From assembly GCA_964036045.1 (NCBI GenBank), contig OZ038383.1, positions 6,836,430-6,900,429 on the forward strand: 64,000 nt of DNA. Direction: 5' to 3'. The translations under genes were made by a program, and so were the position numbers. Origin of the DNA: Eutreptiella sp. 'Long Island Sound 2002' (taxonomy: Eukaryota > Euglenozoa > Euglenophyceae > Eutreptiales > Eutreptiaceae). Below the pieces are notes generated by a model. That model searched no databases, was not told the origin of the DNA, and saw nothing but the letters and a program-made list of their open reading frames with translations. Shown in pieces: positions 19,877 to 45,499 of the stretch (position 1 is its first letter; every line of letters starts with the position of its first letter).

Positions 19877-19932
<56 letters not shown>

Positions 19933-19975: not shown

Positions 19976-20007
<32 letters not shown>

Positions 20008-22502: not shown

Positions 22503-22537
22503 CACTACATTGTGACACTACATTACTACGCCTCACC

Positions 22538-22890
22538 ATGGTAGCCTATCAAGTTCGTGCACCAGAGGCCCCCGGTAAATCAATAGTCAGGGGGTAGCCT
22601 ATCAAGTTCGTGCATCAGAGGCCCTTGGTAAGTCAATAGTCAGGGGGTGGCCTATCAAGTTCGTGCATCAGAGGCCCTTGGTAAGTCAATAGTCAGGGGG
22701 TGGCCTATCAAGTTCGTGCATCAGAGGCCCCTGGTAAATCGATAGTCAGGGGGTGGCCTATCAAGTTCGTGCATCAGAGGCCGCTGGCAAATCAATAGTC
22801 AGGTGGTAGCCTATCAAGTTCGTGCATCAGAGGCCCCTGGGAAATCAATAGTCAGGGGGTAGCCTATCAAGTTCGTGCATCAGAGGCCCT
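22538..22890 (+). repeat. 53-bp satellite, plus-orientation block 1
   Basis: About seven tandem 53-bp units containing GCCTATCAAGTTCGTGCATC, immediately after the Ulp1-like gene. It meets the opposite-orientation block at a palindromic junction near 22891. Confidence 0.95.
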
Positions 22891-23062
22891 GATTATTGGT
22901 TTACCCAGGGCCTCTGATGCACGAACTTGATAGGCTACCCCCTGACTATTGGTTTACCCTCTGCGTCGTATACTCCCCGACCCCCGTCCGCCCTCCTCCT
23001 CCGCTTGCTGTGCAATCATCCATGCAACCCCCTGCCCCATCCATCTGTTCCTCGTGCTGCAG

Positions 23063-23188
23063 ACAAGGCAGCCAAGCTGGAGGCCGAGAAGAAAGCCGCT
23101 GCAGACGAGGCAGCCAAGCTGGAGGCCGAGAAGAAAGCCGCTGCAGACGAGGCAGCCAAGCTGGAGGCGGAGAAGAAAGCCGCTGCAG
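23063..23188 (+). repeat. Exon-like cassette 1: three 42-bp coding repeats
   Basis: Three 42-bp units encode the 14-residue repeat DEAAKLEAEKKAAA, a charged Ala-rich coiled-coil motif. A pyrimidine-rich stretch ending GCTGCAG lies before the first unit and GCTGCAG|GTGC after the last, like the acceptor and donor sites of an internal exon. The cassette may be a captured host exon with its flanking intron. Confidence 0.6.
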
Positions 23189-24709
23189 GTGCTTCACCCC
23201 TCGAGCGGCACAGGCCATTGCCCAATCAACACAGCCCGACCCATCTTAGCTCCTCTCGCACCCGCCATCTGACGAGTCCCACAGACACCACCCATTACCA
23301 CTACCGCGATCCTTGTCAACACATCAACAGTTCCAAAGGCACTTCTGATGCACGAACTTGATAGGCTACCCCCTGACTATTGACTTACCGGGGGCCTCTG
23401 ATGCACGAACTTGATAGGCTACCCCCTGACTATTGATTTGCCAGCGGCCTCTGATGCACGAACTTGATAGGCTACCCCCTGACTTTTGATTTACCGGGGG
23501 CCTCTGATGCACGAACTTGATAGGCTACCCCCTGACTATTGATTTGCCAGTGGCCTCTGATGCACGAACTTGATAGGCTACCCCCTGACTATTGATTTGC
23601 CAGGGGCCTCTGATGCACGAACTTGATAGGCTACCCCCTGACTATTGGTTTACCCAGGGCCTCTGATGCACGAACTTGATAGGCCTGCCCGTAACTATTG
23701 ATTTACCGGGGGCCTCTGATGCACGAACTTGATAGGCCACCCCCTGACTATTGGTTTACCCAGGGCCTCTGATGCACGAACTTGATAGGCTACCCCCTGA
23801 CTATTGACTTACCAAGGGCCTCTGATGCACGAACTTGATAGGCTACCCCCTGACTATTGATTTACCAAGGGCCTCTGATGCACGAACTTGATAGGCTACC
23901 CCCTGACTATTGATTTACCGGGGGCCTCTGATGCACGAACTTGATAGGCTACCCCCTGACTATTGATTTGCCAGTGGCCTCTGATGCACGAACTTGATAG
24001 GCTACCCCCTGACTATTGATTTGCCAGGGGCCTGTGATGCACGAACTTGATAGGCCACCCCCTGACTATTGGTTTACCCAGGGCCTCTGATGCACGAACT
24101 TGATAGGCTACCCCCTGACTATTGATTTACCAAGGGCCTCTGATGCACGAACTTGATAGGCTACCCCCTGACTATTGATTTACCGGGGGCCTCTGATGCA
24201 CGAACTTGATAGGCTACCCCCTGACTATTGATTTGCCAGTGGCCTCTGATGCACGAACTTGATAGGCTACCCCCTGACTATTGATTTGCCAGGGGCCTCT
24301 GATGCACGAACTTGATAGGCTACCCCCTGACTATTGGTTTACCCAGGGCCTCTGATGCACGAACTTGATAGGCCTGCCCGTAACTATTGATTTACCGGGG
24401 GCCTCTGATGCACGAACTTGATAGGCCACCCCCTGACTATTGGTTTACCCAGGGCCTCTGATGCACGAACTTGATAGGCTACCCCCTGACTATTGACTTA
24501 CCAAGGGCCTCTGATGCACGAACTTGATAGGCTACCCCCTGACTATTGATTTACCAAGGGCCTCTGATGCACGAACTTGATAGGCTACCCCCTGACTATT
24601 GGTTTACCCTCTGCGTCGTATACTCCCCACCCCCTGTCCGCCCTCCGCAGCTTGCTGTGCCATCACCCATGCAACCCCCTGCCCCATCCATCTGTTCCTC
24701 GTGCTGCAG

Positions 24710-24877
24710 ACAAGGCAGTAAAGCTGGAGGCCGAGAAGAAAGCCGCTGCAGACAAGGCAGCCAAGCTGGAGGCCGAGAAGAAAGCCGCTGCAGACGAGGC
24801 AGCCAAGCTGGAGGCCGAGAAGAAAGCCGCTGCAGACGAGGCAGCCAAGCTGGAGGCGGAGAAGAAAGCCGCTGCAG
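24710..24877 (+). repeat. Exon-like cassette 2: four 42-bp coding repeats
   Basis: Same design as cassette 1 with one extra unit and the same splice-like edges. The flanking non-repeat sequence of the cassette is also conserved. Confidence 0.6.
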
Positions 24878-25659
24878 GTGCTTCACCCCTCGGGCGGCAC
24901 AGGCCATTGCCCAATCAACACACCCCGACCCATCTTAGCTCCTCTCGCACCCGCCATCTGACGAGTCCCACAGTCACCACCCATTACCACCACCGCGATC
25001 CTGGTCAACACATCAACAGTTCCAAAGGCACTTCTGATGCACGAACTTGATAGGCTACCCCCTGACTATTGACTTACCGCGGGCCTCTGATGCACGAACT
25101 TGATAGGCTACCCCCTGACTATTGATTTGCCAGCGGCCTCTGATGCACGAACTTGATAGGCTACCCCCTGACTATTGATTTACCGGGGGCCTCTGATGCA
25201 CGAACTTGATAGGCTACCCCCTGACTATTGATTTGCCAGGGGCCTCTGATGCACGAACTTGATAGGCTACCCCCTGACTATTGGTTTACCCAGGGCCTCT
25301 GATGCACGAACTTGATAGGCCTGCCCGTAACTATTGATTTACCGGGGGCCTCTGATGCACGAGCTTGATAGGCCACCCCCTGACTATTGGTTTACCCAGG
25401 GCCTCTGATGCACGAACTTGATAGGCTACCTCCTGATTGTTGATTTACCGGGGGCCTCTGATGCACGAACTTGATAGGCTACCCCCTGACTATTGATTTA
25501 CCAAGGGCCTCTGATGCACGAACTTGATAGGCTACCCCCTGACTATTGGTTTACCCTCTGCGTCGTATACTCCCCGACCCCTGTCCGCCCTCCTCCTCCG
25601 CTTGCTGTGCCATCACCCATGCAACCCACTGCCCCATCCATCTTTTCCTCGTGCTGCAG

Positions 25660-25827
25660 ACAAGGCAGCCATGCTGGAGGCCGAGAAGAAAGCCGCTGCA
25701 GACAAGGCAGCCAAGCTGGAGGCCGAGAAGAAAGCCGCTGCAGACGAGGCAGCCAAGCTGGAGGCCGAGAAGAAAGCCGCTGCAGACGAGGCAGCCAAGC
25801 TGGAGGCGGAGAAGAAAGCCGCTGCAG
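25660..25827 (+). repeat. Exon-like cassette 3: four 42-bp coding repeats
   Basis: Nearly identical to cassette 2, with a Met codon in place of Lys in the first unit. It was copied together with the neighbouring satellite units. Confidence 0.6.
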
Positions 25828-26195
25828 GTGCTTCACCCCTCGGGCGGCACAGGCCATTGCCCAATCAACACACCCCGACCCATCTTAGCTCCTCTCGCAC
25901 CCGCCATCTGACGAGTCCCACAGTCACCACCCATTACAACCACCGCGATCCTGGTCAACACATCAACAGTTCCAAAGGCACTTCTGATGCACGAACTTGA
26001 TAGGCTACCCCCTGACTATTGACTTACCGGGGGCCTCTGATGCACGAACTTGATAGGCTACCCCCTGACTATTGATTTGCCAGCGGCCTCTGATGCACGA
26101 ACTTGATAGGCTACCCCCTGATTATTCATTTACCGGGGGCCTCTGATGCACGAACTTGATAGGCTACCCCCTGACTATTGATTTACCGCCCCTGA

Positions 26196-26423
26196 TGCAC
26201 GACATTGCTAGGCTGGTCCTTGCAATAGAACGCACATCCTCTGATCCAGGTGCAGCTGAAGCCGAAGTGCAGGAAGCAGCGGAGGAGGGCGAAGAAGGAG
26301 CAGAAGCGGAGGGTGAAGGGGCAGAAGCAGGTTTGCCACTGATTGCACAACACCACTGATGATCAACCTTGATAGGCTACCCCCTAATTACTGATTCACA
26401 AAGACCCTCATAAACGAAACCAT
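26196..26423 (+). other. Degenerate satellite edge with Glu/Ala-rich coding remnant
   Basis: Broken satellite units surround a short open stretch (about 26250-26359) coding AEVQEAAEEGEEGAEAEG-like sequence ending AGLPLIAQHH. Its composition and end resemble the C-terminal tail proposed for the Ulp1-like protein (ending AGLPGIA). It may be a fragment of that tail or of the SET-gene promoter region. Confidence 0.4.
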
Positions 26424-28651
26424 ATGCCTGCACCTATAGGTCCTGCGAGTCCAGTGTCGGAGACGACGAAGGAAGTGGCGGCCGAGCTGCTGGCCGCGTG
26501 GGAGTCGGACGAGGGGGAGGATTGGTGGAGGACGGCGGGGCACAGGGAGAAGCCGCAGCGGGAGAAGAAGAGGAGGGCGTCCTGGGACCTGCACCGAGGG
26601 GATGTGAGAGCCCTTGGTATGTAATTGCATGCGTAAGTGTTTTCTTCTGCTGCTGTGCTTCTTGGGAATTTAATTCTGATCCTTGCTGTTTGTATTCAGT
26701 TCTCGGCAAGAGGGAAAGGGAAGAGGAGCCCGCGGAGAAGTGGGCTTATGAGAAGGAGCGAAGCCCAAGCCCAAGTCCTGAACGCCAGGTTCTTGGAGAA
26801 GGCTCGCCCAGCCCCGGGCCCCAGTCGCCGGTGGTCAGCCCAACCCCGACCGACGTGTTGATGGAGGAGGAGGAGGCGCCGGAGGCAAAGAAAACGGAGG
26901 AGGAGAAGGGGAAGGAGAAGGACACCGAGACTGCGGAGGCGGAGGGTGGGCAGAAGGGGGCAGAAGCAGGGGGCGGGGGGGTTGCCAAGCAACCGGAGGG
27001 GGTCACAACGAGGAGCCGAATCACAACGAAACGCCGACTGAGGGACACGGGGGCGGCGGAGGCCAAGCAACCGGAGGGGGTAACAACGAGGGGTCAAAAA
27101 CGCCGAGCCACGGACACGGGGGCGGGCGAGGAGGAGGGGCAACGGGCGGTGGTGGAAGGGCCGCATTTTGTTATGGGGAAGCACCTCCAGATCGTGGAGT
27201 CCACGATTGGGGAAGGCCGGGGGGCTAAAACGAAGGTGGATATTGCGGCGGACACCTGCCTGGGGGAGTACAAGGGGGAAAGGATTGAAGGGACGGCACC
27301 GGATTGCCTGACGGGTAGGGGGGATAAGGTTTTGTGCATCAAGGGCGGGGGGGCAGATTCAAAGACTGGGAGGGGGGTTTGGGTGGACGGGGGTAAAAGG
27401 GGGAATATTTTTAGCCGTATCAACGCTCGCCCTCGCCTGGAGGATTGCGACGTGATCATCCACCTGGATGACGGTACCCCCAGGGTTTGGACCCGGCGGG
27501 AGGTGAAGGCGGGTACCGAGCTGGCCATGTTCTATGGCGTAAATTACCCGTTGCCCCCTTCGCCTCCACCTGCTGATGCTGCTGACCCTGATGAACCTGC
27601 TGCAGAAGGTTCCAACCAGCCAGTTCTAACCACCCAGAACATTCTTCCCAGCGCCTCTGCCCTGCCTGCAGGGCAACTGTATGCTGATGACGGGTCCCTG
27701 GTGGGTCGCCAGTATTTTTCTTCGAAGGTGACCTACCCCAGCCAGGCCACCGTGACCCATGTTGATGGGGGGCAGTTTATTGTCAGGAAGGGGGACAGGG
27801 TGCGTCTGCTGTGGTCCGAGATCGGGGGGCACTTGACACAGGTTGAAAGCCGGACCTGTTGTTTCAAGATGGACTGGCGGAAGGGGAGCTTCGTCAGGCC
27901 GTTAACCACGGTCTGGGGTGACCAGAATTCTTTGGGGGGCGACTTCATCACGGCTGGGTCGCGACTTGCAGGCGTTTACCCTCCCTGGTTTTGTTACGAG
28001 TTCGAGGGGGCTGCTCCTGGAGGTGTCGTAGAAATGGTGTTTGTGGGTGGTAAGTGGGAGGTGATTTCGGTGCAGAATAGGAAGGACGTGTACGGCCAGA
28101 CGGGTCAGTGGCTGCAGGTCGGAATCGACCTCAGGGGGTATGATGCGGAATACCAAGCTGCAGCGCATGGTATCCGCCAGAAGACATTTTTTGTCCGGGC
28201 AGAGAGGGCTATGGGTGTCGACAGCCGGTGGGGGGCGACGCTGGATTGGGCTGAGTGGCGGGCGGAGCACCTGGTAGCTCCGCCTGGCAAAAAAAACATC
28301 AAGACCCAGGACAAGTCCGTGTACGAGAGGGTGAAGGACAGGGTATATGGGCATGTCATTTGCCGGGTTAATGGTCATGCCATTAAGCTCGTCGACGGCG
28401 ATGGAGGGACTCGGGGCGGGATGGGCCACTGCATCTCGGTCATTGCCGAGTGCAGCAAGGATTCGAGGGGCAAGTCCAGCTGGTTTCTGCTGGTCTGGGA
28501 AGCTGGAGGCTTGGATTCGCCGAGGATCAGGCGGATCTGTCAGGTGGGGGTGGACAGGGCGCTGGCTAAGATGCCTGATCTGCAGTCGCGGATCGAGCAT
28601 TGGGGAAAGAGCTCGACCGTCAGCCCCCCCTGCGGCGTTGAGCCTGACTAG
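26424..28651 (+). CDS. SET-domain protein (candidate lysine methyltransferase)
   Basis: Starts at ATG 26424. Exon 1 is 26424-26616 and exon 2 runs from 26700. An 83-bp GT-AG intron (phase 1) joins them in frame, giving about 714 residues. Residues 1-64 are acidic and helical. Up to about 220 the protein is Glu/Pro/Gly-rich. A SET domain follows at about 223-347: GEYKGERI, then GNIFSRINA in the place of the RLINHS motif, then AGTELAMFYG in the place of the GEEL-x-YDYG motif. The arrangement is like KMT5A/SETD8, but the NHS motif is altered, so activity is uncertain. The C-terminal half (about 375-714) is well conserved-looking but unrecognised. The gene sits between oppositely oriented satellite blocks, between the Ulp1-like gene and the transposase. 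The stop is TAG; the frame continues with an NLS-like PKAKRARVD. Confidence 0.75.
26617..26699 (+). other. 83-bp intron of the SET gene
   Basis: Donor GTATGT, pyrimidine-rich 3' part and acceptor TATTCAG. Removing it links two open frames that are otherwise out of register, the best-supported intron in the mobile region. Confidence 0.8.
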
Positions 28652-28694
28652 CCCAAGGCAAAGAGGGCTCGTGTCGATTGGGGGTCTGTACCGT

Positions 28695-29189
28695 TGCACG
28701 TTTGCAACGGCAAATGTTTTTAAAGAGTTCATTCGTAGGGGGTCGTTGCCGGTGCAGGGAGCAGGTTTGAGGCAGCAGTTTGACGTTCGGGATCCAAGTT
28801 TTTGTTGGACAACTCTGTCCAAGTTTGTTGTTTGGGGGGGGAAATGGCAGATGAAGAGGTCTGTCCCCGTTCAGAAGGCGAAGGCTGAGGTGGAGGAGAT
28901 GCTCAGCAAGGGCAATCCGACGCAGTGGCTCCTGCCACCAGAAAAGGCCGTCCCCTATCTCCCCCTCGCTCTGGTCGACTCCGACCAGTGCACCCCCCCT
29001 TTCACCTTCTGTCGGCCCGACTCCAAGGGCCGACTCAGCAGTTTTGATGCCTTCTGGGTCCCGAACGTCAATCAGAAGCGGCTTGCAGGGGGTAGGAACT
29101 TTCGGCAGGTGGAGCGGGAAACCGAAAAGGGGGGAACCACCCAAGTTGCATGGGTGGTCTATCTCCCCGATGAGACCGCCATTGGGTAG
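28695..29189 (+). CDS. Unrecognised ORF downstream of the SET domain, possibly its continuation
   Basis: An open frame of about 165 codons ending in TAG, in a different frame from the SET gene and starting just after it. It is protein-like (FATANVFKEFIRRGSLPVQG, KFVVWGGKWQMKRSV, then a Pro-rich stretch and SFDAFWVPN). There is no strong start codon; the first ATG in frame is at 28851. It may be the true C-terminus of the SET protein, joined through a missed intron or a one-base shift, or a separate gene. Family unknown. Confidence 0.4.
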   Translation, partial: CTFATANVFKEFIRRGSLPVQGAGLRQQFDVRDPSFCWTTLSKFVVWGGKWQMKRSVPVQKAKAEVEEMLSKGNPTQWLLPPEKAVPYLPLALVDSDQCTPPFTFCRPDSKGRLSSFDAFWVPNVNQKRLAGGRNFRQVERETEKGGTTQVAWVVYLPDETAIG

Positions 29190-30514
29190 GAGGATCAGTG
29201 GGGGGGCTCGCGCGAGGGTTCCGGTAACCCTAATTGGAAGCGCTAGAAGTTTTTCTAGTGCTTGCATTGTGAAGTGGTTTGGGCAGTGAGATGATGGCGT
29301 GTGTAGTGGCAGAGCGCATCGCCGGACCAAGACTGAGATCTGAACCCACGCATTGCAGGCTCCGCGATTTTCTTCTACGGCGGGGGGGTCAGCAGACTGC
29401 TGTTTGCTTGGCAAATTTTACCCTTGATACCGGTTCCCAGACCCAGATATAATATTGAAAGGCCAGGCTCCATTGCATTCTGTCCCTTTCTCTGCGCGGT
29501 GAATTCTGTTTGACCTCCTACTGACCTCCTACCTGATACGCGCTTGTCTACCCCTGTGACTTTCTCTTTGGCGCTATTGGGGTGTTTGTTCATTTTTTGG
29601 AGCCAAAGGGCACCCTATTTCGTCTCATTTGACCTGATCTTGACCGGATCCCATTGCTTACTTTCCATCTGGTTTCACCAGGTGAGACAGATTGCAGGTA
29701 CAGGTACTGGTTTCTGTAACCGCAGGTGTTGTTACAACACGCTATTTTTTAGCCTCAAGAGTATTATTCAGATCTACCCCATTTCGTCTGATTTGACTGG
29801 TTTGACCGGACCGAACCCTTTTCCTTTGTCCAACCTTGAGAGTAATGGCTGATACAGGCTACAAAGACACCACAGCTACAGTGCGTTTGCGTCGTTTGCT
29901 TCTTAGTTGCGTGGGTGCGGTTAAGGGAACTCGAATTTTGAACCCAAATGGGTTCAAGAGAATTATACAGACCCAACCCACGTTGTAAGTGGGCGTGAAC
30001 CTTGTTCCTGACCTTAAAAACAGGTCAGAAGGGACCTGGGAAACGGCGCTGGCCAATTAGTGCAGGTAAGGCAGCTACCGAGGCTAGGGGAAGGTACGTG
30101 ACGCCACAGATGTGCGGATCCTGTGTGGTCACACCCCGGGAACCTCGAGTGCCAGAGGGTCCCCCTACAGGGGGGCGATAACCAAGCTACGGCACCCTCT
30201 GGGCCGAATCCCAGCCAGCGAGTTTTGTTTCCAGGTTACCGGCCAGTTTTCATGGTTTACCCCCACGTGCTTATAAGTGTCAGTTAGCGTTGTCGTCATC
30301 AGCCTGATTCTGACTCCCCATATGTTTCTCCCGTTTAACCCAAGTGTGAACAAATGCTAGTGGATCCTTGAAAATGATGTACTGGATTCGCACATTTTAC
30401 TTGCTTAATCCTTCTGCTATTGATTTGTTTCGTTCCCTTGCCTGTCGTGCGTGGGCCTGTGAATGATTCAGGATTCAATCACCAATTGAGTTGATGCCCG
30501 TCGTACATCAGACG
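29190..30514. other. Region without a supported gene
   Basis: More AT-rich than its surroundings. There are only short ORFs without motifs and no splice-linked frames that I could connect. It lies between the SET ORFs and the satellite and may be the 3' region of those genes. Confidence 0.5.
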
Positions 30515-30835
30515 CCCCAGTGTTCCCCCCTTTTACCCCTTTACTCCCCCCTACGCTCCCCCCCCCCGGGCCCCTTCCAAACCTCCCCTCCAACCCCCCC
30601 AAAGCCCCCCCACCCCTCTCCCCCCTACGCCCCTCCAGCTTTTCCAACATACTCCTCCCCCGCCCCCCCCCCCCCCCCCCCCCCCCCCGCACCCTCCTCC
30701 CATCCCGGGGCCCCCCCAATTCCCCCTCCAACCCCCCAAGCCCCCCAACCCTCCCCCCTCCCCTGCCTCCCCTCCCCACCAGCTCAGCCCTCACCTCCCC
30801 CTCCACCCCCCTCATCCCCCCGCATCCTTCAAGGC
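30515..30835 (+). repeat. C-rich low-complexity tract
   Basis: Over 300 bases of almost pure pyrimidine, including an uninterrupted run of more than 20 C near 30662-30688. The long ORFs on both strands here (Pro-rich on plus, Gly-rich on minus) are products of the composition. Confidence 0.9.
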
Positions 30836-30867
30836 TGGGGAGGGCAATGTCTTGCCATACATGAGTC

Positions 30868-32695
30868 AGACGGTAACCTATCAAGTTCGTGCATCAGAGG
30901 CCCCGGGTGAATCAATAGTCAGGGGGTAGCCTATCAAGTTCGTGCATCAGAGGCCCTTGTTGACTCAATAATCAGGGGGTAGCCTATCAAGTTCGTGCAT
31001 CAGAGGCCCCCGGTAAATCAATAATCAGGGGGTAGCCTATCAAGTTCGTGCATCAGAGGCCCCCGGTAAATCAATAGTCAGGGGGTAGCCTATCAGGTTC
31101 GTGCATCAGAGGCCCTGGGTAAATCAATAGTCAGGGGGTGGCCTATCAAGTTCGTGCATCAGAGGCCCCCGGTAAATGAACAGTCAGGTGGTAGCCTATC
31201 AAGTTCGTGCATCAGAGGCCCCTTGTAAATCAATAGTCAGGGGGTGGCCTATCAAGTTCGTGCATCAGAGGCCCCTGGTAAATCAATAATCAGGGCGTAG
31301 CCTATCAAGTTCGTGCATCAGAGGCCCCGGGTAGATCAATAGTCAGGGGGTAGCCTATCAAGTTCGTGCATCAGAAGCCCTTGTTGACTCAATAATCAGG
31401 GGGTAGCCTATCAAGTTCGTGCATCAGAGGCCCCCGGTAAATCAATAATCAGGGGGTAGCCTATCAAGTTCGTGCATCAGAGGCCCGTGGTAAATCAATA
31501 GTCAGAGGGTAGCCTATCAGGTTCGTGCATCAGAGGCCCTGGTAAATCAATAGTCAGGGGGTAGCCTATCAAGTTCGTGCATCGGAGGCCCCCAGTAAAT
31601 GAACAGTCAGGGGGTAGCCTATCAAGTTCGTGCATCAGAGGCCCCTGGTAAGTCAATAGTCAGGGGGTGGCCTATCAAGTTCGTGCATCAGAGGCCCCCA
31701 GTAAATGAACAGTCAGGGGGTAGCCTATCAAGTTCGTGCATCAGAGGCCCCTGGTAAGTCAATAGTCAGGGGGTGGCCTATCAAGTTCGTGCATCAGGGG
31801 CCCCCAGTAAATGAACACTCAGGGGGTAGCCTATCAAGTTCGTGCATCAGAGGCCCCCGGTAAATCAATAATCAGGGGGTAGCCTATCAAGTTCGTGCAT
31901 CAGAGGCCCCCGGTAAATCAATAGTCAGGGGGTAGCCTATCAGGTTCGTGCATCAGAGGCCCTGGGTAAATCAATAGTCAGGGGGTGGCCTATCAAGTTC
32001 GTGCATCAGAGGCCCCCGGTAAATGAACAGTCAGGTGGTAGCCTATCAAGTTTGTGCATCAGAGGCCCCTTGTAAATCAATAGTCAGGGGGTGGCCTATC
32101 AAGTTCGTGCATCAGAGGCCCCTGGTAAATCAATAATCAGGGGGTAGCCTATCAAGTTCGTGCATCAGAGGCCCCATGTAGATCAATAGTCAGGGGGTGG
32201 CCTATCAAGTTCGTGCATCAGAGGCCCTTGTTGACTCCATAATCAGGGGGTAGCCTATCAAGTTCGTGCATCAGAGGCCCCCTGTAAATCAATAATCAGG
32301 GGGTAGCCTATCAAGTTCGTGCATCAGAGGCCCGTGGTAAATCAATAGTCAGAGGGTAGCCTATCAAGTTCGTGCATCAGAGGCCCTGGTAAATCAATAG
32401 TCAGGGGGTGGCCTATCAAGTTCGTGCATCAGAGGCCCCCAGTAAATGAACAGTCAGGGGGTAGCCTATCAAGTTCGTGCATCAGAGGCCCCTGGTAAGT
32501 CAATAGTCAGGGGATAGCCTATCAAGTTCCTGCATCAGAGGCCCCCAGTAAATGAACAGTCAGGGGGTAGCCTATCAAGTTCGTGCATCAGAGGCCCTTG
32601 GTAAACCAATAGTCAGGTGGTAGCCTATCAAGTTCGTGCATCAGAGGACCTTTGTGAATCAATAATGGGGGTTAGCCTCTCACGTTCATCTCTCG
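30868..32695 (+). repeat. 53-bp satellite, plus-orientation block 2
   Basis: About 34 units in the same orientation as block 1 and opposite to the 22.9-26.2 kb block, so the SET gene is bracketed by inverted arrays. Multi-unit segments recur (for example 31004-31340 and 31847-32180), showing block-wise duplication. The last units decay into the transposase 5' region. Confidence 0.95.
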
Positions 32696-32703
32696 TTGTA
32701 GAC

Positions 32704-35093
32704 ATGTCCATCTTAATGCTTTTGCTCTGCGCAATCTGCGATGTCGGCTGGAGCCTTGTGGGGCTGACCATAGTCTTTTGTGGTCTCGTCTCGGCCGCTG
32801 TTGTTCTCTCCCTTCTCCATCGGAGGCATCGTACACACCACCAACGGCGGCGAAGACGCTCACCGTGTCAACTACTCCACAAGGGACGATGTGCGAGGAA
32901 GGAGATCCCCATTTTCGTGGCACTCCCCGACAGAACCCTCGTTCTGTGTGTGCCTAAGGATATCAGTGAGGCTGCCATCTTAGATCTGGTGAGCATCATC
33001 ACTGGTGTGCCCGTTCATGATCAGCGAATTTGTAGAGTTTCACGCAGAACCGGTGACTGGGTCCGTAACGAACGGGTTCTTGTCCTGTTTCGTCTCCGCG
33101 GTGGTGTTGCATGGAACTGCATCCCGCTGCAGGATCAAACCGCAGACTTCCTTAGAACCAACTTTTGGTCCCTCCACGCGTCCATGGGCCACCCTACCCC
33201 CGCCCAGATGACCTTGCTTTTTGAGGGTGTATATGACGATCCATTTTGTGCGACCTTGAGATCTGTTTCTTCATCAATGTTGGACAACGTCAAAACGGAA
33301 CCCGCGGAAGTGGCCGTTTCATCCAGACCTGCCCCCGTAAGAAACCCCCCTGCCATCTTATCTCAAACCCCGGCATCTGACTCGGGACCCACGGAATCTA
33401 CGGATCCGGCCCCCTTAATTAAGCATGAGTTTAGTGCCGCCCAGTCACCGCGTTCTGATCCTAAACTTCATCCCGACTTCCCCCCCCGCAAACGCGTGAA
33501 ACGCGAAGCCCATTGTCCCTCCGAGCACTCCCCCCGACGTGGAGACGAGGTTGGCTGCACCTTCCGGTCCCACACCGAAGCTGTTGGATACCTGAATAAG
33601 ATTCGGGGGGAGTTGGCAAAACATAACAGCGTTACCAGCAAGTCTGCAGGGGGGAGTAATCGGGCACGTATTGGTTGTCGCATTTGGGGACGCCTAAAAC
33701 AACACGGGCCCCTAAAGGAGACCAGTAGAGCACGCCCAGAAAAGCATCCCCGGCCTCTCACGAAGTCTGATTTGTGTCCATATGGTGCAACGCTAACCCA
33801 TGATCCTGGCACGGGCCTGTGGAAGCTAACCGAGTGTAATTGGGACCACTCTGACCATTGGTGGCCTGACGAGGAGGAGGCCCCCCCACTGGACGAATCA
33901 GCCCTCCCTGATGAGCTCTGGCACGACATTGAGCGGGCGTATGAGCACCGTGAAATGCCGGAGCAAATTCTTGTAAATTTGAGGAAGAAATATAGCGAGG
34001 ACGCGTACCCGGCAATCAAAGGGTTTTCAACCCAGCACATCAGAAACTTTTTCAAGTCCATCGAACGCAAGATGGACCCAAATGATCTTGCACGTTTGAT
34101 TAACCACCTGAAAATGCTCAAAAAGGCAGATCCTGCCTGGTATTTCAATCATGAAGCCCCTGACCCAGTCACTGGTGTTGTACGAAGATGGTTTTTTATG
34201 ACGCCAGAGCAAGTAAAAAACGCCAGAAAATATGCACAAGTCATTTTTGAAGATAACACGTACAAATCGAATCGGTACGGCAAGGCATTGGCCCTGTTTT
34301 GCGGTATCAACGAACATGGCCAAACCCTTCTCCTGGCTCAGGGCTGCATGCCAAGCAGTGAAAATGCAGAGGATTATGAGTGGCTCTGGCAGGAGTGGAT
34401 AAAGGCAACCGGTTGTGCACCCCGCGTTTTGTTCAGTGATGCTGCATACGCCCTCTTGGGGTCCGTTCCCAGGGTTTTCCCCCCGGACCGAACTGCTCAC
34501 TTCCTCTGCCTTTTTCACATTTACAAAAATCTTACCGAAAACTGCCGAAACTCCCTCGAGCAACACGATTTCACTGCTCTTGAGAGCGCCATCCGACAGG
34601 TTCAGGAGTGCCCAGATAAGGACGCTGCTGATATTCTCTGGCGCAAAATTCTGGAGGACCCCCGCTGGAAAACTGTCAAGGACTACCTTGGAGTCAGATC
34701 CCCCCTACATCGTCTTGACCGTTGGTGTGTTGCATGGCAGGTAGAAGTTTTTACCTTCGGCTGCAAGTCCACACAGAGGGCTGAGTCTTTGAATTGCCGC
34801 ATAAAGCGCCACCTAACTACAAGAAAAGGTTACTACCACATTTTTTTATCTGTTTTGCACTTGCTCTCCAAGGTGGGCTATAAACTTGAATATACTGAAA
34901 TGGTGAATCAGCGGCACGCCAATCACCAAATAGCTAACCAGACCTTCCCATTCTATGTCAAGTTCGTTTCAGGCAAGGTGACAAGCTGGGCGTTTGATAG
35001 AATGCTCCAGCAGATGAATGCTTCAACTGCGAACCTCGTGTATGAGTATGACATGTCCAGGGAGGCCCAATATATAGTTGCTAACAGGGCGGC
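32704..35093 (+). pseudogene. MULE transposase with N-terminal ubiquitin-like domain, 5' part (split by element 2)
   Basis: ATG 32704 is the first ATG after the satellite. Residues 1-37 are strongly hydrophobic and are followed by an Arg/His-rich stretch, a possible membrane anchor. Residues 68-134 match ubiquitin along the fold (IFV start, GVPVHDQR in the place of GIPPDQQR, end LVLFRLRGG at about 126-134). A FAR1/WRKY-GCM1-like zinc cluster follows near 358-386 (C-P-Y-G ... E-C-N-W-D-H-S-D-H). The DDE transposase core is D517 (EDNTYKSN), D579 (FSDAAYAL), C-x2-FHIYKN and E694 (RAESLNCRIK). The frame runs into the LTR of element 2. Joined across the single copy of the target site it continues without a shift at 46048. 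The protein would cut and paste the MULE; the insertion has disabled this copy. Confidence 0.88.
35089..35093 (+). repeat. Target site duplication of element 2, left copy
   Basis: GCGGC immediately before the LTR, repeated at 46043-46047 after the second LTR. Five bases is the usual size for Ty3/gypsy integrases. Confidence 0.9.
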
Positions 35094-35626
35094 TGTAAGT
35101 GCGGCTAACCCCCATCTGCTCAGATTTTCACAGATCTGCCCAGATTGACTACATTTTGGTCATTTTTTCTGCTTCGGCGGAATCGCCGCCCCGCAGCTCA
35201 GTCTCAGGATCAGACCTATATATTTCTGATGTGCCGGATCTGATTCCGCGGTCCATTCATCGTAAATCCGCCGCGTTCCGATCATTTACCCGGAATCGCC
35301 ATTTGCCGCTGACGCGCGTGCGCGAGCCAGATCGGCCAAATATTTTTTCACAATCGGATTTATATAAATCTTTTCAGACAGATATGGACACTCAGATGTA
35401 CTTAGGATAATCCGCATCAATTTTCTTCATAGACTGGGATTTTTTGCCGGATAACAATCAGCATGGATCTTGCCTCCGTTGTTGCCGCTCTTGCCTCCGT
35501 TGGTGTCCGTGTATCCGGTTCTGCCCCCAACAGCAGCGTTCAGGTCGACTCCTCGCGTGCCTGCCCCCCCGGTCTTGCCGGCCCTGAGCCCTCCGGCACC
35601 ATCAACGACCTAGGGCAGCACTTTCA
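35094..35626 (+). repeat. 5' LTR of element 2
   Basis: TGTAAGTGCGG ... CACTTTCA. It contains a TATATAAA box and, downstream of it, the gag start codon. Confidence 0.96.
35361..35368 (+). promoter_or_regulatory. TATA box in the LTR of element 2
   Basis: TATATAAA, about 95 bases before the gag ATG at 35463. A start of transcription near 35390 would leave the gag start inside the R-U5 region. It is repeated at 45777-45784 in the other LTR. A weaker TATATAT lies at about 35217. Confidence 0.6.
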
Positions 35627-38457
35627 TGGTAGCAAAGGCTACCTGAATGTTGCTTCAGTGGTGTCCCAACCACAGCCCGCTCCCCAGTACGGCCCCGTAG
35701 ACCCCGCCGCTTCTCGAGAAGTAACGATTACACTGCCTTGGTGCTGTGCGAACGAGGCCTTGAAGGGAATGCCTTGCGCAAGTCCAAGCTGCCCAAGAAG
35801 GGCGCACATCAGCAGCTCTGGGGACCCAGATTACCATAATCCCAGTCGAAACTGGCCATCGAGCAGCTGGAATCCGCCGGCCTACGACGATGGCAACGCT
35901 CCGGTAGAGCTTACGGAGCTGGCAGGTACCAACATTCCTTACCAATGTCCAACATTTGAGACCACGGACGCCGATCTGAACGACATTGAGATGGGCGGTC
36001 CAGGTGAGGTACCTAGCTATAATCGACCAGCCTCTTGGGCACAATGGGACGACCATTTGTCCCTAGAAGTGACCCGTAACCTTGAGAGCCTTGAGGCCCT
36101 TTGTTGGTTAGCGTCGTCTAAGCTGATCGAACAAGAAAGAATCGCCTCTGATTTTTTAACGGAATATTTTTTCCTCCTTCAGACCGAAATTAATACCAGG
36201 ATGTGGTGGCGTTCTCAAGAAGATGACTCTTTTGCCATTTTTTTGCAGATCTGGGAGGCAAGCCCCTTCCCGAAGGAGAAGGTCCCGGCACCTGTTCCCG
36301 GGCCCTCCGCCCCTCATCCCCCTGTTTCCATCCGCGACGATCTAGCCGCCGCGGTTGAGGAAGGAATTTTAGAGGCGGCCAGGCAGGCAAGCCTGGAAAT
36401 CAGGGCTGAAGGAGCTCCCCAAGTGGACTCCTGGCTGCGGACCACCGAGATCAGCGGTCCGACAGCCTGCTCAGGCTCTTCAGGACACGGCATGTACTGT
36501 CCTGCCGACTGCTCCTGCAGATTCCAGCGAGATGCTGAGCTCCAAACGCTCAAAGATCAAATGCACCTCATCATTGAAACGCTGGGAATAAAAAATCTTT
36601 TCAAGGCGCACATGCGGTCTGAGGGCGCCTCATCGGTGGAACAAGCAACAGAGCCGTCGGAGGAGGCGACAGAAATTTTTTCAATTGCTCCTTCGGTGGA
36701 CTCCAGGACCACCGATGCAAGGATCAGCAGGACCAAGCTAAAGGAAAGGGTTCAAAACTCTCGTTCTGAGAGTAGGACGGCGAAGGCTAGGACTGAGGCT
36801 CAGAATGCCAAGCGAACTGCCTCCCGTACTGCCCCTCCTGCTGCTGATTCCAATACCTTAGCCCAGCTGTTGCTCGCCCAGACCCTCGCCGGAGCTGGTG
36901 TGGCGAATGATGCCGCCAAGGTGTCTGCCATTACGGCCGGTGTTGGGCTGGATTCGCTTCTTAATCCTACTTCCTTGCGACTTCGTCAGGTTGCCTCAGT
37001 TCCAACGGGAATTTAAACTGTGGGTTAAGACTCAAAAACTCCAAGATGATCAGTTCCTGATGGCCCTCTTGGATTGCCTTGAGGGAGCGCCGGCCAACAC
37101 TTGGCTCAGGACTTGGAGTGATCGCGAGGATACAAGTTCCCCCCTTACCTTTGATGAGGTGTGGGAACAGTTGGAGGTACGTGGATCCCGGCTGCCAGAG
37201 GACCACTACCACCAAATGTTGAAGAATTTTCCTTCATTCTCGCGATTAATTTTGCACGAAGTGCAAGACAAAAAACAGCGCTTCTGGAATTTAGTGGAAG
37301 AAGCTGAACATTCAGGCGAAAAATTTTCTAGTGCCGAGCTGAAAAGTCTGATTTTTGACAAGATCCCCTCAGAAACTGCCGCCACCCTTCGGAACAAACA
37401 GTCCGAAGAAAAGGTCAAGACCTGGTGGGCGGAGGTGGAAGGCTTTGATGCCTCCGCCAATAAATTTTCAGTTCGGGAAGCACTTCAAAAGTGTTCCCCC
37501 ACGTCGTTTTCCAAGGTGAAATTCACTGAAAACACGTGGAAAATCAAGTTTCATGAACACGAGGATCGGGACTTGTTTGTCCAAGTCCTCAACAGGGGAG
37601 TCAGCTTCCATGGCCATCGCCTGAAGGCCAAAAACTGGGTGTTTTTGTACACCCCGAAGGAACTCTGGGAGGAGGTTGAGCGGCTCGCCGACGCCGCCAA
37701 TCAGAATTTCCATGAGGGACTTGGGGGAAACAAGAATACCCAGCAAAACACCCAAAATGGGGCCCAAAAGGGCAACAAAAAGGTGAATGACACCCGGAAT
37801 GTTCAGCAGCACTGTAGCATCTGCCTTCTTTTAGGTTCTACGAACCGAGCTAAGACGCATTCTACTGATAATCACCGATGGTCTCCTTACGATCACAAGG
37901 TGATTGGTGAAAATATCAGTAATTCGCAGAATTCAGACAGGAATGACAGACAGGTGCACGGTGGGAAGGCTGGAAAAGGGAATCCGACCCCCTCCGGTGG
38001 AAACAAAAATCCTGGAGGCCCTGGCGGGTCCCAAGGCACAGGAAATCGGACTCCATCCGGCTCCGGTGGGCAGCCGAACGGCCAGAAAAATCCCAATAGC
38101 AACGCCGGAGGCGGAAATCGAAATCCAGGCCAAACCCCTCAATCCGGTGCAAACAAGGGAAATGCTCCAGGATTCCAGGGTAAAGGTAAGGGAAATCCTT
38201 CAGGAACCCCTTTCTCTGGTAAGGGCAGAGGGCGTGGCGACGGTGGAGGTCCATCATCCGGCGGCCGTGGCCGTGGACGTGGAAAGGGCAACCATCGTGT
38301 GGATCAGGTCTCAGGTGCAGATCAGGTGTCCGATGCAGATCGAGATTACGTTGAAAATGCCTTGAATCCAGCAGATGATCCGCTCCAGGATGAGTGGGTC
38401 GACGAATCAGGGTGTGTCCACAATGTTAACGCAGCCACTGGAGGTCAGAACGCCTAG
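35463..38457 (+). CDS. gag: Gag of element 2, starting inside the LTR
   Basis: ATG 35463 lies inside the 5' LTR, and the frame crosses the LTR end and primer site without a stop, to TAA at 37014-37016. The capsid-like domain (EFKLWVKTQKLQDDQFLMALLDCLEG, TWLRTWSD) continues in the +1 frame from about 36990 to TAG at 38455-38457. A one-base shift is therefore needed near 36970-37010, either programmed or a mutation. A zinc-knuckle-like cluster (C-S-I-C ... H ... H) lies at about 37813-37880, then a Gly/Asn/Pro-rich tail with RGRGRGKG repeats typical of nucleocapsid. The gag stop is followed in the same frame by pol. It packages the RNA in particles. Confidence 0.8.
35627..35643 (+). promoter_or_regulatory. 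Primer binding site, initiator tRNA-Met type
   Basis: TGGTAGCAAAGGCTACC begins directly after the LTR. Its first 11 bases match the complement of the animal-type initiator tRNA-Met 3' end (TGGTAGCAGAG) with one mismatch. It is also self-complementary (GGTAGC/GCTACC around a 4-nt loop). Confidence 0.65.
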
Positions 38458-38492
38458 GGGAGCCACGAAAATCGCCCCTCCCCAGGCGATTT
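38455..38492 (+). promoter_or_regulatory. Candidate UAG readthrough signal of element 2
   Basis: TAG at 38455-38457 separates gag and pol in one continuous frame. Downstream, AAATCGCC (38469-38476) pairs with GGCGATTT (38485-38492) around an 8-nt loop. The loop contains CTCCCC, complementary to GGGGAG at 38457-38462, next to the stop. The two helices have the order of a pseudoknot, but one connecting loop is only 1 nt, so they more likely alternate. The context CCTAGGGGAGCC matches the gag stop of element 1 except at one base. Confidence 0.55.
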
Positions 38493-41400
38493 CAGGCATG
38501 ATCCCCAGATTCCTTCTCGACCACTACTTGATGTAGGGTCGCTTGTCTCCTCTCCCCTGGATCCGGCAGCGGATCCTTCTGTTGTAGTGGACGAGGTTGG
38601 TGTACAGTCCAAGCACAGGGCCCGTCAGTTTGTCACAAAGCTGTGGGTCTCTGATTGCAAGGGCAATTTCCACCTCGCCACTTGTTTGTGTGACAATGGA
38701 TCGGAGGTAAATCTCCAATCCAATTCTTTCTTGCCTGACGACTGCGTGTTTGATTCGCCTCATCCTGTTACCCTCGAGGGAGTTTCTGGACATTCTCTCG
38801 CAGGTGGGCAACGCGGTTGTTATATATCAACTCATTTGGTCGCTCAAGACCTTTGGGAAGAAGGCAATGTGGAGGAAGTTATCCTTCAGGATGACTACTT
38901 CTATCGTGCCGACATAAACTATGACCTTTACTTGGGCCATCCTTGGCTTCGCAAGAACAGGGTGGCGCCCGTAGGTCATCGGCGTTGTTTTTTGCTGGAG
39001 TCAGGTCCCTTGGAGCGTCCTGAATTTCGTTTTTTGCACGCAGGGTTTAAAAGTGCAGAAGAATTTTTGAAGCAAAAGGTTACACCAAAGTTTGGCGAAG
39101 ATGTCACCATTGCAGAGGTGAATGGGAGTGCCGATTACTCCCGAGAGTTAGAATGTCTTCGTAGGGACTCCCAGCCACGACGCCCTTCGCGCTGGCACTC
39201 TTCATCCTACAGAGTTGTCGACAAATGGCGCGATACAATTTGTGAATATTTTTATGAACACCATTCCTTTTGGCCACAGTATGATGCCTTTGCTAACCGC
39301 GAGAACAAGCGCTTTGACAAGCACTTTCGCGACGCTTGGACCCATAAATGGGACAAGAAGTTATGGATTAATCCTCCGTTTCACTTAATCCAGCAGGTCA
39401 TCCACAAAATCAAGCAAGATAAAACCCAGGCGATTTTAGTTGTGCCCTTGTGGGACGACAAGCCTTGGTTTCAGGAATTGCAAGACATTTGTGTAGATTA
39501 CATCGAACTTCCCAGGAAGATTAAGCTGTATGCCAGAGACGACACAGGTCCCCTGCCACAGCGGCCCTGGAGTTCGCTTGCATTCCTGGTGGATGGAAAG
39601 CTTTCTGACTCTGATTCTGCTGATTCTAGTACTGATTCCTGTGTTGGGTCTGAATCTGAGGTTGAGCGTGGTACTGATGATGAATCTATTTTTTCTGGTT
39701 TTTGTCCGTCAGATGCCCAAGGTGATCAAACGTCAAATGGATCCGCCTCGTCTCCCTCTTCCCCAATACGATCTACATCCAAAAGAATCTACGGCGCACG
39801 GACGACAAAAAAATTTTCTTCGCGCCGCAAATTCAGAGTTTTTTATGAAAAACCCCGTGTGGAAGCTTTCAAAGATCCTTTCGAGGAGCTGGATCACGAA
39901 GAGAATCTCTGGAATGTCGACACTCGACCCACCTATCTTCAAGAGGCAGTTGATACGGACCTTTTCAGGGACATCCGTAAGAAGATTCTTCCTGCCAAGG
40001 CCGAAGAAATCGCCAAAGTTTTTTCGACAGTAATTCCTGGCGATCAGGTGGACACCGAGTTGTGTTCCAAGAAAAGAGACAAGACTTTTGAGGAACGGAA
40101 GGACACAACCCTTTCGGGGAAGTTGATCAAAAACCCCCCTGTCCGTGGGCAGTTCGGTGAAGCCTTCATCGAGCTTCGTGAAGGGTACAAGGCGAAGAAA
40201 CAGCATCCTTATGAGAACCATGGACAGAAACATGAGATACTCAGAAAAATAATCGAGAGAAATCTCAGGGAATTTGGTTGGCTTGAGGGTTGTATGACCA
40301 GCGAGTGGTGCTGTGCACCCTTTACAGTCCCGAAACCTCCGCCTGCAGACCAGAACACTATTGATGGTTGGCGAATGGTTGTTGATTTTCGCAACCTCAA
40401 CGCCGAAACCAAGGCGGATTCACACCCCCTGCCCCTCATTGGGGAGGAAGTCGCCAAGAGGGCAAGAGGTCGTTTGTTTTCTGTGCTGGATCTCCGTCAC
40501 GGCTTTCACCAAATGCCGTTGAGGAAGGACAGCCGACCTCTCACCTGTATGTGCACGCCATGTGGCCCAGTCCAGTGGACGGTCATGCCCATGGGCCTGA
40601 AGAACGCCCCTTCGTTTTTTCAAAGAATGATGGAAGATGTGCTTTTTACAGCTCATCCTGAGCTTCGTGCCTTCGTGAGTGTGTACATAGATGACATAAT
40701 CATCGCGACAGAGGGGGAGGGACTGACCGAAGCCGAGCTGGTGGCCCTACATGAAAAGCAGCTGAACCAGGTTTTGGACATTCTTGATGCCAATCAGCTG
40801 ATTTGTGGGCCAAAGAAGGGAAAATTATTTTTAAAATCAGTCGAATTTTGTGGTTCTCTCCTTGAGAATGGCACCCGACGACCCAGTCCAGGGAAGCTCG
40901 TCGCTATTCAGAAGTGGAAGCGCCCTGAGACGATCACGGAATTGAGAGGATTCCTGGGTTGTTGCAATTTTTACCACACTTTTGTGCCGAATTATGCCAA
41001 ATTTGCTGCCCCCCTCACTGAACTATTGAAGGTAGGGAGAGATGCGGGCAAGGCAGGTTCAAAGGTTCGTGTCAAGTGGACTGACGAGTGCGAGGAGGCC
41101 TTCCATCACTTGAAGGCGGCCCTCTGCGAAGTCGCCACGTTGCATGTGCCGAAGTTCGACCGACCCTTCTACATAAGAACCGACGCTTCTAGGTACGCGA
41201 TCGGAGCTGTCCTTGAACAGGTTGATGAAGCCACAGGTGATCATTACCCTCTTGCATTTTGGTCGCGGAAGCTAGCTCCACGCCAGATGCAATGGTCACC
41301 GCGTGAGCAAGAGACTTATGCCATAATCTGCGCGCTGAAGAAGTACCAATCGTGGGTTGGCACCAATCGAGTCGAGGTCCTAACGGATCATCGATCTCTG

Positions 41401-43662
41401 GAGTATTGGGCCACCGAACACATTGATACTGTCGCGAGCCCAGCTGGTCGACGGGCCAGATGGCATGAATTTCTCAGTTTGTTTGACCTCCATGTGTCGT
41501 ATTTGCCTGGAAAACACAACACGGTAGCGGATGCTCTGAGCCGATGGGCTTACCCCGCTTCAGAGGGGCTGCAAAGTACCAACATCCATGGTACGGAGCA
41601 GGACCGCCACGTAGTAATCGAGTGGGATCAAGAAGAAAAAAACCTCATTCGACGTGAATGCATGCAATGCTCTGTTAAACAGCATGCATTACCGCGTCAT
41701 GACATCACGGCCTTCTCAGATCCGGCGCATGCTCATGAAATCATCACCAAATCACTGAAAGTCGTGGAGAAAGTCACCGATCCCTCCTCAGGGAGTGTGA
41801 AACGGTTCGAGTATACCCGACCAGTAAGTGGATCTCGGTTGATTCAGGGCATTAAGCGTCGAGATCCGGCCAAAACTCCACCCCTGCCGAAAGATTCCCT
41901 TATCATCCGTGACTGGACGAATGATTATCTGCATGATTCCATGTTTAAAGAGGTCTTTGGAAATCTCAAATCCAAAGATGCTCACAAGGATGGAATTTTT
42001 TCTGAATATTCGTTGGATGGGGGGAAGCTGTGGATGGAGGGTAAATTGTGCGTACCAGACGCCCTGGCCCCCCGAGTGTTAAACTGGTGGCACAAATGGG
42101 AGTCCCCCCACGCACATGGCCGTAGATTATGGTCGATGATTAAACATAGGTTGTTTGGCTCAAGGCTATATACTCATTGCATGAAAGTAGCCGCCGGATG
42201 TGCCCAATGTGCTGTCTCGACGCCCCCCAGCGCGAAGAAGCACGGCCATCTGAGGCCACACCCTATTCCGGAGCGCCTCTTTAACAGAGTCACCAGTGAT
42301 TTTTTCCATCTTGGTGAACTCGACGACGAAGAGTGCCATTGGACCAACAAAAAGGTCAATGGAGTGCTCCTTATACAATGCCGTCATTCTGGCTACATTT
42401 AGGTGTTGCCTTGCAACATCGAGTCAATGACTGGCAAGGCTGCCGCCAAATGGTGCGCGCAGACCTGGATGGGAGGTTGGGACGTCCCATCCGAGGTGGT
42501 TACGGACTCAGGCAAAGAGTACACCTCCGAATGGTGGAAGGAATTATGTGCTCGCCTTGGAATCCACCACCTAAGATGTGAAATCCACTCACATCGAGCG
42601 TTGCCTGGCGAAAGAGCCGGCCGCTCAATTATAAATATGCTTCGTAAGGAGCTCGCCAGTGAGAAGGACTTCCATTGGCTTGAAGTTCTCTTCGCATTGC
42701 TTCGCCGTTACCACAACACGCCTTTGTATCATGGCCTTTCTCCAAATGAAATTGTCTTTGGACGAAAGAAGTGTTGGCGGAACATGCCGTTGAATAATCC
42801 TCGCCCTTGTAAAGATGCTTCGTTGTTTTTGGACGAAATCCAACGAGCAGAAAAAACTGTCTCGAAATTAATCGATAAGCATCAAGCTGACTGGCTTTGG
42901 GTCCAGAATCAAGGCCGAAAAAACCCCCACAATTTTGAAGTCGATGATCGAGTTTGGCTTCGAAAATCCGAAACCACCCTGGGCGGAGATGATAAGCTTC
43001 TTCCCTTGTGGGAGGGGCCATTCGCTGTTACAGCGCGTCTAGGTGAGAACAGGTGGAGGATTCGTGTGGATGTCAGCAGGGAAATTGAAGTTTCGGGCGA
43101 TCGCCTCAAGAGAGAGATCCCCTCCCCCAAGGATCGGGTTAAACCCCTTTTTTGGACTTCGAAATTTTTGTCCGATCGGGTAATCGAAGGGGGGAAGTAC
43201 GAACTCAAGAGGATTTTAGAAGCAAGACGAGACGAAAAGGGCGAATGGGAATTTCTATGTGAGTGGAGGGGCTTTGATTCCAGTCACAACAACTGGGAAC
43301 CAGCCCATTCTTTTGTCCATGGGTACACCAAGGGGTTCATCGACTTCCTCAAGAAGCACCCCGAAATTGGCGTACTCCTGACAGACTGTCTGTCGAAACC
43401 CGACAGACAGGTGGAGAGCGACGGAAAAAGACCTGTGGTGAATCGAGATCCAGCCTTTTACGGCCCTCAGCAGCCACATTCCAGGGCTGATCCGTCGATC
43501 CCCCCTCCTGCGGTCAGGCCAGCCCAAGAGCCAAATGAGGACCAAGCTTCGAGTTCGGCCGCTGATTTGCAGCGCCCAAGCCGTACGAGGGCCCCACCAG
43601 ACAGGTTGGTGGTCACATGTATTCGTGCTTGGCCGAATGGAGGGAGATCCGTCGTGACTTGA
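38458..43662 (+). CDS. pol: Pol of element 2, with an in-frame TAG in integrase
   Basis: One frame from the gag TAG to TGA at 43660-43662, broken only by TAG at 42400-42402. Residues are counted from 38587. Protease: D36-N-G, where D-T/S-G is expected. Methyltransferase-like domain: about 205-330, with DAFANRENKRFDKHF and intact NPPF at 262-265, then ILVVPLW and PW. Reverse transcriptase: Y-I-D-D with Asp at 702-703. RNase H (RTDASRYAIGAVLEQ). Integrase: Asp codons at 42298 and 42505, Glu at 42610, with the TAG between the first two. Chromodomain: about 43192-43330 (YELKRIL ... EWRGF ... NNWEP). Unless the TAG is suppressed, integrase and chromodomain are lost. The other domains look intact. 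Compare element 1, where no such stop exists. Confidence 0.9.
42400..42402 (+). other. Premature TAG in the integrase of element 2
   Basis: It lies between HSGYI and VLPCN, where element 1 has an uninterrupted HSGYVVAVP. The frame is the same on both sides, so this is a simple nonsense change rather than an indel. Confidence 0.85.
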
Positions 43663-45499
43663 GTCGCCGCCGCCATAATCTGGGTAACAGTCGTCTAGTC
43701 CAGGGCGTCATGGCACTCGTCGCTAGGGCTCAAGGGTGTAGGTTCGAAACCCTTGCATGTCCAACTCCTACAAAAGCTCCAGCCTCGCCCCGTCGACCAC
43801 TTATTCCAATGTGAGTGTTCTGACGACTTGAAAAAACCACATTCTGCTCAATCCACTGTTCATTTTTCCTGATTACGACATGATGTGGAGAACTGCGAAT
43901 GTTTGATAATTTGACGTCAATCAACTTTTCTTTGGTCTCCGTTCGGCAGACAAGGCGTAGATACGCTGCCGAAAGCCACGGAGTGTGCTGCCGTGTCCAG
44001 AAAAAACCAAACTCAGGCTTAATTCAGGCAGATTCGGGGTAATCTTGTCTCTGTTGGTCTGTGCATCTTTGGAATTTGGCTACTCGTGCAGATGGAAGCA
44101 AATGTACATAGTAAAAACGCCGGCCGGCGACATTCACCCATACAGGCACCCCCTGTAGTACTGGCGGCACTAGATGCGACGCCAGGAACTCGGATCTTAC
44201 CTTCATTTGCCGTGATGCTGAAGCCAAAGTCCAGATTCAGATCCAGATTTCTTGAATTTACCTTGAATTCCTCAGGTTTGTCCATCATTCTTGCACTGTT
44301 GCAGCAAAACCCCGACGTCAATTGTTCAGACAACCTTCATATAGGAGCTCCAGGGACTTCTAAAAGCAACCTCTCGGACCTCAGAGCTTCCGTAAGCTTC
44401 AGTGTATTTTTGGCACACACCAACGTGAGCTCAATCCGACCTGAAACCGTCGAAAATGGTGAATCCAAGTGTCTTGTGGGACTCAATCGAAAGATGGGCC
44501 TTGTCCAAGTCAATTGACACCGCCGCCACTGTAAATAAAGGACTATTCGGTGTCTCTCAGTTATATACTGTCAGTAAAGCGCCTTCAGCGAACCTTCGGC
44601 GCGTTACATGCCAAGGATCCAGGGCCATCATGTCCCATCATGATGCATCATCACATGATCCACATTTTCATGGAATCTGTTGGATGCTCGCGAACCAACG
44701 TGCCGGAAAGCATAATTCAGCTGAATAAACGACAATATATATTAACTCTAGTCTAAACGAAGGTGTTAGTAGTTTCAGTTCTAGACATTCCGCTTCATTT
44801 CACTCTCATCTTAGGGAATTTGCTCATTTTAGGACAATTTAGGTTGATTTCCTTGTCATCTCCTCTCATTCCTCGAAGATCTGTTTTCGGCTTTGCCTAA
44901 CTAAGTGAACAGAAAAACATCCCTACCTTCTGTGGTTCACTTAGGGCCTGCAGACGACATTTGTATTTGTTTTCCCTCTCTGTGATTGTTTCATCTCCTT
45001 CATCTCTGCTCAAATTGATTCTCAATCTTGCTGAATCTTGTGATCATCCACCAGATGCGCCAAATCTGAAGCACATGCTGCACTTTTCAGAACGAGAAAA
45101 GCGGGAGTAACACGATGTAGAGTACGTGGAGGACACCGCAGCGTGCCCGCGACAGCTAAACTGTGCCAGAGCGCTGAGATGTCACTCCATTTCTTGGTTC
45201 TCCCACTCAATCCACCAATAATCTACTTCATTCTCAACCAGGGCATGGTTTGGTATCGATTCTCGATACGTTTACATGCTTTTTAGCCCTTAACCTAATG
45301 TTTTACTGCCCGGAGGACTGTTCGTCACTCCTCATTCTGTCTCATTTCAGGTTCATCCATCCTGATTCAGTGCCAATTCAGCCCAAATCAGGTCAGATCA
45401 AGCAGATTTCGCCCCATCGAGGCTACATTTCTATTTTTTTCTGGGACTTACCCGCACTACGTTCTTCGTTGACGTAGCGACACACCCCAGTGTGTTTTT
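43663..45499 (+). other. 3' noncoding region of element 2
   Basis: 1.8 kb, AT-richer than pol, with no convincing ORF. A GGTTCGAAACC box at about 43740 resembles a Pol III B box, but no tRNA fold forms around it. Confidence 0.6.

Follow-up and report, generated by a model that had tools for sequence, protein, structure and literature searches.

Does a transposon of a euglenophyte alga carry a transposase that is cut free from a ubiquitin-like domain by a protease of the same element? The question is raised by a stretch of contig OZ038383.1 of Eutreptiella sp. 'Long Island Sound 2002' (GenBank assembly GCA_964036045.1), 64,000 nucleotides long and called the window here (C6:6836430-6900429). 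It holds a Mutator-like element (MULE) whose transposase is preceded, in the same frame, by a 67-residue segment ending in RLRGG, and upstream lies a gene for a Ulp1-like protease. An earlier interpretation of the letters alone, the sequence-only reading, took the segment for ubiquitin-like and proposed cleavage after RLRGG. What is solid in our finding is a large MULE with two further genes aboard, one protease-like and one SET-like. The element is most likely of a known kind, a MULE with a Ulp1-like gene, to which an unusual N-terminal extension has been added. We consider it probable that this element is ordinary as MULEs go and has a Ulp1-like gene as an accessory, that the segment is a translated, family-specific N-terminal extension forming a domain other than ubiquitin, and that RLRGG stands there by chance. 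Genome-wide searches covered the 2.28 Gb assembly in 2205 contigs.

A single element with three genes

The protease-like gene and the transposase belong to one element and travel together. Among the matches listed, comprising 56 protease-like places and 150 places of the transposase N-terminus, a transposase N-terminus was found within 60 kb of the protease-like gene in 37 of the 56, against a chance expectation of 0.44. The nearest one was on the same strand and downstream in 36 of these 37 pairs. In the 37th pair, on C7, it lay upstream, and another same-strand place was listed 12 kb downstream. The two genes are 10.8-12.1 kb apart in 10 of the 37 pairs; longer distances may hold insertions, and the 19 of 56 protease-like places that had no partner among the matches listed may in part reflect missed partners.

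The element has terminal inverted repeats (TIRs) of about 100 bp, with an 84-85% match between the ends, and left and right agree in both copies that were sampled at both ends. MULE target duplications are about 8-11 bp long, and one of these copies (L051/L052, C6:21741683-21759624, about 18 kb) is flanked by a duplication of 9 bp, CAATAACTC. In the other copy (L049/L050) the right end is altered and no target duplication was seen. The window copy has lost its left end, retains the right end with its TIR, and contains the protease-like gene, the SET-like gene and the transposase. In the window and in the 18-kb copy, the SET-like gene and 53-bp tandem arrays in both orientations lie between the other two genes.

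The transposase matches the MULE domain PF10551 with an E-value of 3.2e-17 (63.2 bits, cut-off 27.6). In the window it is interrupted at 35093 by a long terminal repeat (LTR) retroelement, and the match to the complete copies L002-L008 picks up at 46043; the two flanking matches overlap by 5 bp, which we interpret as the target duplication of the retroelement. Copy L002 encodes 1181 amino acids from the corresponding ATG. A one-piece match over at least 758 of the 815 query residues was obtained in 50 of 55 scored transposase places, mostly at 96-97% identity, which suggests recent activity.

For the protease-like protein, a frame with catalytic residues in the expected order was confirmed, and the family label given by the sequence-only reading fell below profile thresholds. 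Residues H513, D532, Q581 and C587, assigned by eye, stand in the order known from Ulp1 and are kept in all eight near-identical copies read, the window's own among them. No Pfam match to the domain was obtained at E <= 10, and yeast Ulp1 matched at E 0.06, ranked behind a beta-galactosidase at E 0.049. We call the protein Ulp1-like on its sequence, with profile support below threshold.

The N-terminal extension of the transposase

The segment is as the sequence-only reading described it, in its letters and its coordinates: it reads IPIFV...LVLFRLRGG, continues with VAW, and its frame is continuous into the MULE transposase. The Gly-Gly is present, and its role in processing is putative. Two RLRGG motifs occur in window frames of at least 60 amino acids, where 0.39 were expected, the second one (33491, minus strand) being antisense to a basic stretch of the same transposase.

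Is the motif conserved? RLRGG is intact in 30 of the 36 copies read and the di-glycine in 35. This count leaves out L009, L013 and L015 as repeats, and it rises to 33 of 39 for RLRGG when L011, L017 and L018, all unchanged in the segment, are added. The motif was thus kept in related copies, as the sequence-only reading had asked, these being very similar members of the same family. Seven of the 174 residue changes in the segment fall on the five RLRGG positions, against 12.8 expected by length; since old copies decay near-neutrally, this would be a weak conservation signal. The alignment A1 omits L029, which reads RLCRG, and three copies whose segment contains a stop, and this flatters its invariant G-G. 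Selection within the old copies was uninformative as a test of the segment, singletons giving w of about 1 or above nearly everywhere, the core included.

Two diverged copies, L060 and L061, retain RLRGG and have open frames, 1195 and 1198 residues long, that run through the segment. When the three pairs that L002, L060 and L061 form were pooled by hand, the ratio of non-synonymous to synonymous differences (pN/pS) came to 0.58 for the segment, 0.57 for the leader, 0.68 for the stretch following the segment, 0.67 for the residues leading up to the core, 0.46 for the core itself and roughly 1.3 for the C-terminal part. The counts are small, and L036 and L039, the latter a fragment lacking the segment, were left out. 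Compared with the same three copies, L036 (a frame of 923 residues) gave w of 0.31-0.50 in the segment and 0.81-1.25 in the leader. By these ratios, and on small counts, the segment appears to be translated to much the same degree as the catalytic core, and it is probably translated.

Codon preference scores the segment's own frame above the other five, narrowly. In the leader it is close to zero, and in the hydrophobic part lower than in one frame of the opposite strand; translation may start further in than the leader. The active enzyme could even start at an inner ATG past the segment, the first 170 or so codons remaining untranslated and their frame being open by chance or as part of a leader RNA. 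The codon preference of the leader fits such a start, and so does a related MULE family in the same genome, which begins about 90-120 residues before the common region and has no such domain. However, the segment's frame outscores its competitors, if narrowly, and the frames of L060 and L061 run through the segment, and we regard an inner start as unlikely.

The related family, the only other one sampled in the genome, shares 26-29% identity with ours, its common region starting at residue 334, and has a short acidic N-terminus. None of its five loci that reach far enough upstream, out of six fetched, has such a segment. The absence of the N-terminal region from this family means that transposases of this kind do not generally contain the segment. 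No divergent relatives of the segment were found in the genome among the 150 scored in each search out of 213-217 candidates, all belonging to one family at 80-100% identity, and viral contigs yielded no close relatives.

Ubiquitin likeness, predicted fold and proposed cleavage

The claimed alignment with ubiquitin over the entire fold was not confirmed. Gaps are required to align the two, and the largest falls opposite ubiquitin residues 54-60. The ubiquitin profile scored -0.1 bits on the segment, with 200 of 5000 shuffles scoring higher; a significant match to a ubiquitin-family profile was not reached, and a Pfam search of the segment gave no match in 20 of 20 members. The whole protein scored 40 against ubiquitin in a Smith-Waterman comparison (reached by 38 of 2000 shuffles), and RLRGG supplies 26 of these 40 points (BLOSUM62 sum). 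By sequence, the ribosomal protein uL23 of E. coli comes to 38, compared with 40 for ubiquitin.

A single-sequence model of the segment, with a predicted local distance difference test score (pLDDT) of 71, shows the order strand-strand-helix-strand-strand. Ribosome entries made up 50 of the 50 structural matches listed, uL23 where named. Ubiquitin appeared by name neither among them nor in a further listing of matches, many of which are nameless, so that its absence there is no proof. A first model (pLDDT 44.7), whose Foldseek matches were mostly ribosome entries, was too poor to be used as evidence. The structural check proposed by the sequence-only reading thus leans against ubiquitin, with the proviso that the model comes from a single sequence and is of intermediate confidence, and the ubiquitin reading of the segment appears weak.

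Several results weigh against the domain being something other than ubiquitin with a chance RLRGG. With RLRGG fixed and the start free, three scoring schemes were tried, and the ubiquitin score was reached by 7, 9 and 1 of 5000 full shuffles; shuffling within blocks of ten gave 15, 8 and 0 of 5000. With the start chosen by the sequence-only reading, 0-1 of 4000 shuffles of the window sequence did as well, and 0-3 of 4000 of an older-subfamily string; run against NEDD8 and yeast Rub1, this test gave 29-165 of 4000 with the window sequence. As a natural control, RLRGG was attached to 5849 window stretches, of which 4 aligned as well, one of them being the same stretch shifted. A single-sequence search of the PDB returned, at E <= 10, ubiquitin-like domains only (E 0.26-0.65). 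These figures overstate the likeness, because the ubiquitin comparison was picked for looking alike. The hydrophobic leader, with a Kyte-Doolittle maximum of 2.5 (19 residues at a time, computed on L002), is unusual in a nuclear enzyme and gives the strongest argument left for maturation by cleavage, but its codon preference is near zero.

The segment could also be a ubiquitin-like fold, shortened and much diverged, that stays uncut and acts as a binding module. The strand-helix order of the model, the weak PDB matches and the shuffle tests would agree with this. The structural matches are nevertheless of the uL23 type, and seven ubiquitin residues (54-60) find no counterpart, so we hold an uncut module to be quite unlikely. 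The idea that the Ulp1-like protease of the element cuts after RLRGG, which would release the transposase from a membrane leader and free a ubiquitin-like modifier, draws on the same shuffles, on the shared element and orientation of the two genes, on the retention of RLRGG and of the protease residues, and on a leader that would make release useful. Against it, ubiquitin has neither profile nor fold support here, the copies are too alike for conservation to carry much weight, and the segment was found in no other family. We judge cleavage very unlikely, and a self-cutting transposase is a guess. The full scheme, in which a membrane-tethered precursor (leader, arginine-rich stretch and ubiquitin-like domain with RLRGG) is freed to the nucleus by the same-element protease, making a two-gene switch with its own free modifier, is highly improbable. 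If cleavage were true, it would be a transposase maturation of a kind not found in the titles and abstract openings of the literature searched, and it would offer a reason for the presence of Ulp1-type proteases in several kinds of transposon.

According to the explanation we favour, an ordinary MULE, the segment would be part of a translated N-terminal extension confined to one MULE family as far as searched. It would probably fold as a small domain of two strands, a helix and two strands, not ubiquitin, and RLRGG would most likely be the chance end of a beta strand, the chain running on into VAWN. The transposase would work at the TIRs like that of any MULE, leaving the 9-bp duplication, and the Ulp1-like protein may be an accessory factor whose targets would be SUMO or ubiquitin conjugates of the host, a role that has been proposed in other transposons. 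The fold, the translation of the leader and all functions are what we infer.

A genome search with ubiquitin gave no known MULE place among the best 150 matches (to E 3.7e-19), which does not exclude the MULE segment. The search also revealed more than 100 ubiquitin matches over about 60 kb at C15:29319398-29378821 (minus strand), in several open frames, the longest of 1701 residues, which reads as a very large polyubiquitin locus.

Related systems and other features of the element

MULEs bearing Ulp1-like genes, mentioned in the sequence-only reading, are borne out by the excerpts of two papers, which describe Kaonashi/KIU of Arabidopsis and elements of melon, rice and grapevine (PMC13317346, PMC2836005). 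Like the KIU elements in these excerpts, ours is a MULE with a Ulp1-type gene as one of three coding genes. Unlike them (they are non-TIR MULEs), it has TIRs, its third gene is SET-like, and its transposase is extended at the N-terminus by a long stretch that includes a hydrophobic leader. Ginger1, in the excerpt of PMC2836005, is likewise a DNA transposon bringing a Ulp1- or OTU-type protease domain, but its transposase is of another class and the protease domain forms the C-terminus of the transposase itself. The segment resembles ubiquitin precursors processed after Gly-Gly in that RLRGG is followed by further chain, and differs from ubiquitin in lacking a profile or fold match and in its gap. 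Its predicted model has ribosome entries as structural neighbours, uL23 where named, but there is no profile match, the model is single-sequence, and homology is not claimed. No ubiquitin-like domain in a transposase was described in the titles and abstract openings searched.

Features of the MULE copy in the window (positions in the window)
Feature	Position	Strand	Basis or remark
MULE copy	19868..48597	+	matches to copies L049-L053 begin at about 19868 and stop at 48597
Ulp1-like cysteine protease frame, 801 aa	20192..22597	+	putative catalytic residues near 21728 H, 21785 D, 21932 Q, 21950 C
53-bp tandem array over 3' end of protease frame	22540..22889	+	
53-bp tandem arrays, opposite orientation, three blocks	23344-24608, 25033-25555, 25983-26214	-	
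SET-domain-like frame, 717 aa	26498..28651	+	PF00856 E 0.052 in the window
53-bp tandem array just upstream of, and slightly overlapping, transposase frame start	30864..32687	+	
Transposase, first part	32665..35093	+	MULE domain PF10551, residues 515-610 of P0001
Hydrophobic leader and arginine-rich stretch (MSILMLLLC...RRRRR)	32704..32859	+	
Segment of 67 residues ending RLRGG	32905..33105	+	residues 69-135 of the frame from 32701 (P0001)
Ty3-type LTR retroelement with chromodomain, inside transposase gene	35094..46042	+	
Remainder of transposase gene (end approximate)	46043..47150	+	match to L002-L008 from 46043
21-bp tandem array near right end of element	47453..48357	+	
Right TIR, outer end CGGTGACGGTATGCAGACTGCGG	48497..48597	-	85% match to left TIR of L049/L051

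The SET-like gene is possibly a histone methyltransferase carried by the transposon. In copy L053 (L053:3112-4548), where it consists of two neighbouring frames, PF00856 matches at E 2.6e-4 (21.8 bits), just below the cut-off of 22.4. The window holds two Ty3-type retroelement coding regions with chromodomains, at 5497-10125 and 38587-43659.

An array of the same 53-bp unit stands at the corresponding place before the transposase in L002-L008. The 53-bp arrays reach up to 34 copies, and one of them stops at most 25 bases from the transposase ATG. Three blocks of 42-bp repeats lie amid them (23056-25827), and related repeats in L053 encode a lysine- and alanine-rich peptide, AADEAAKLEAEKK.
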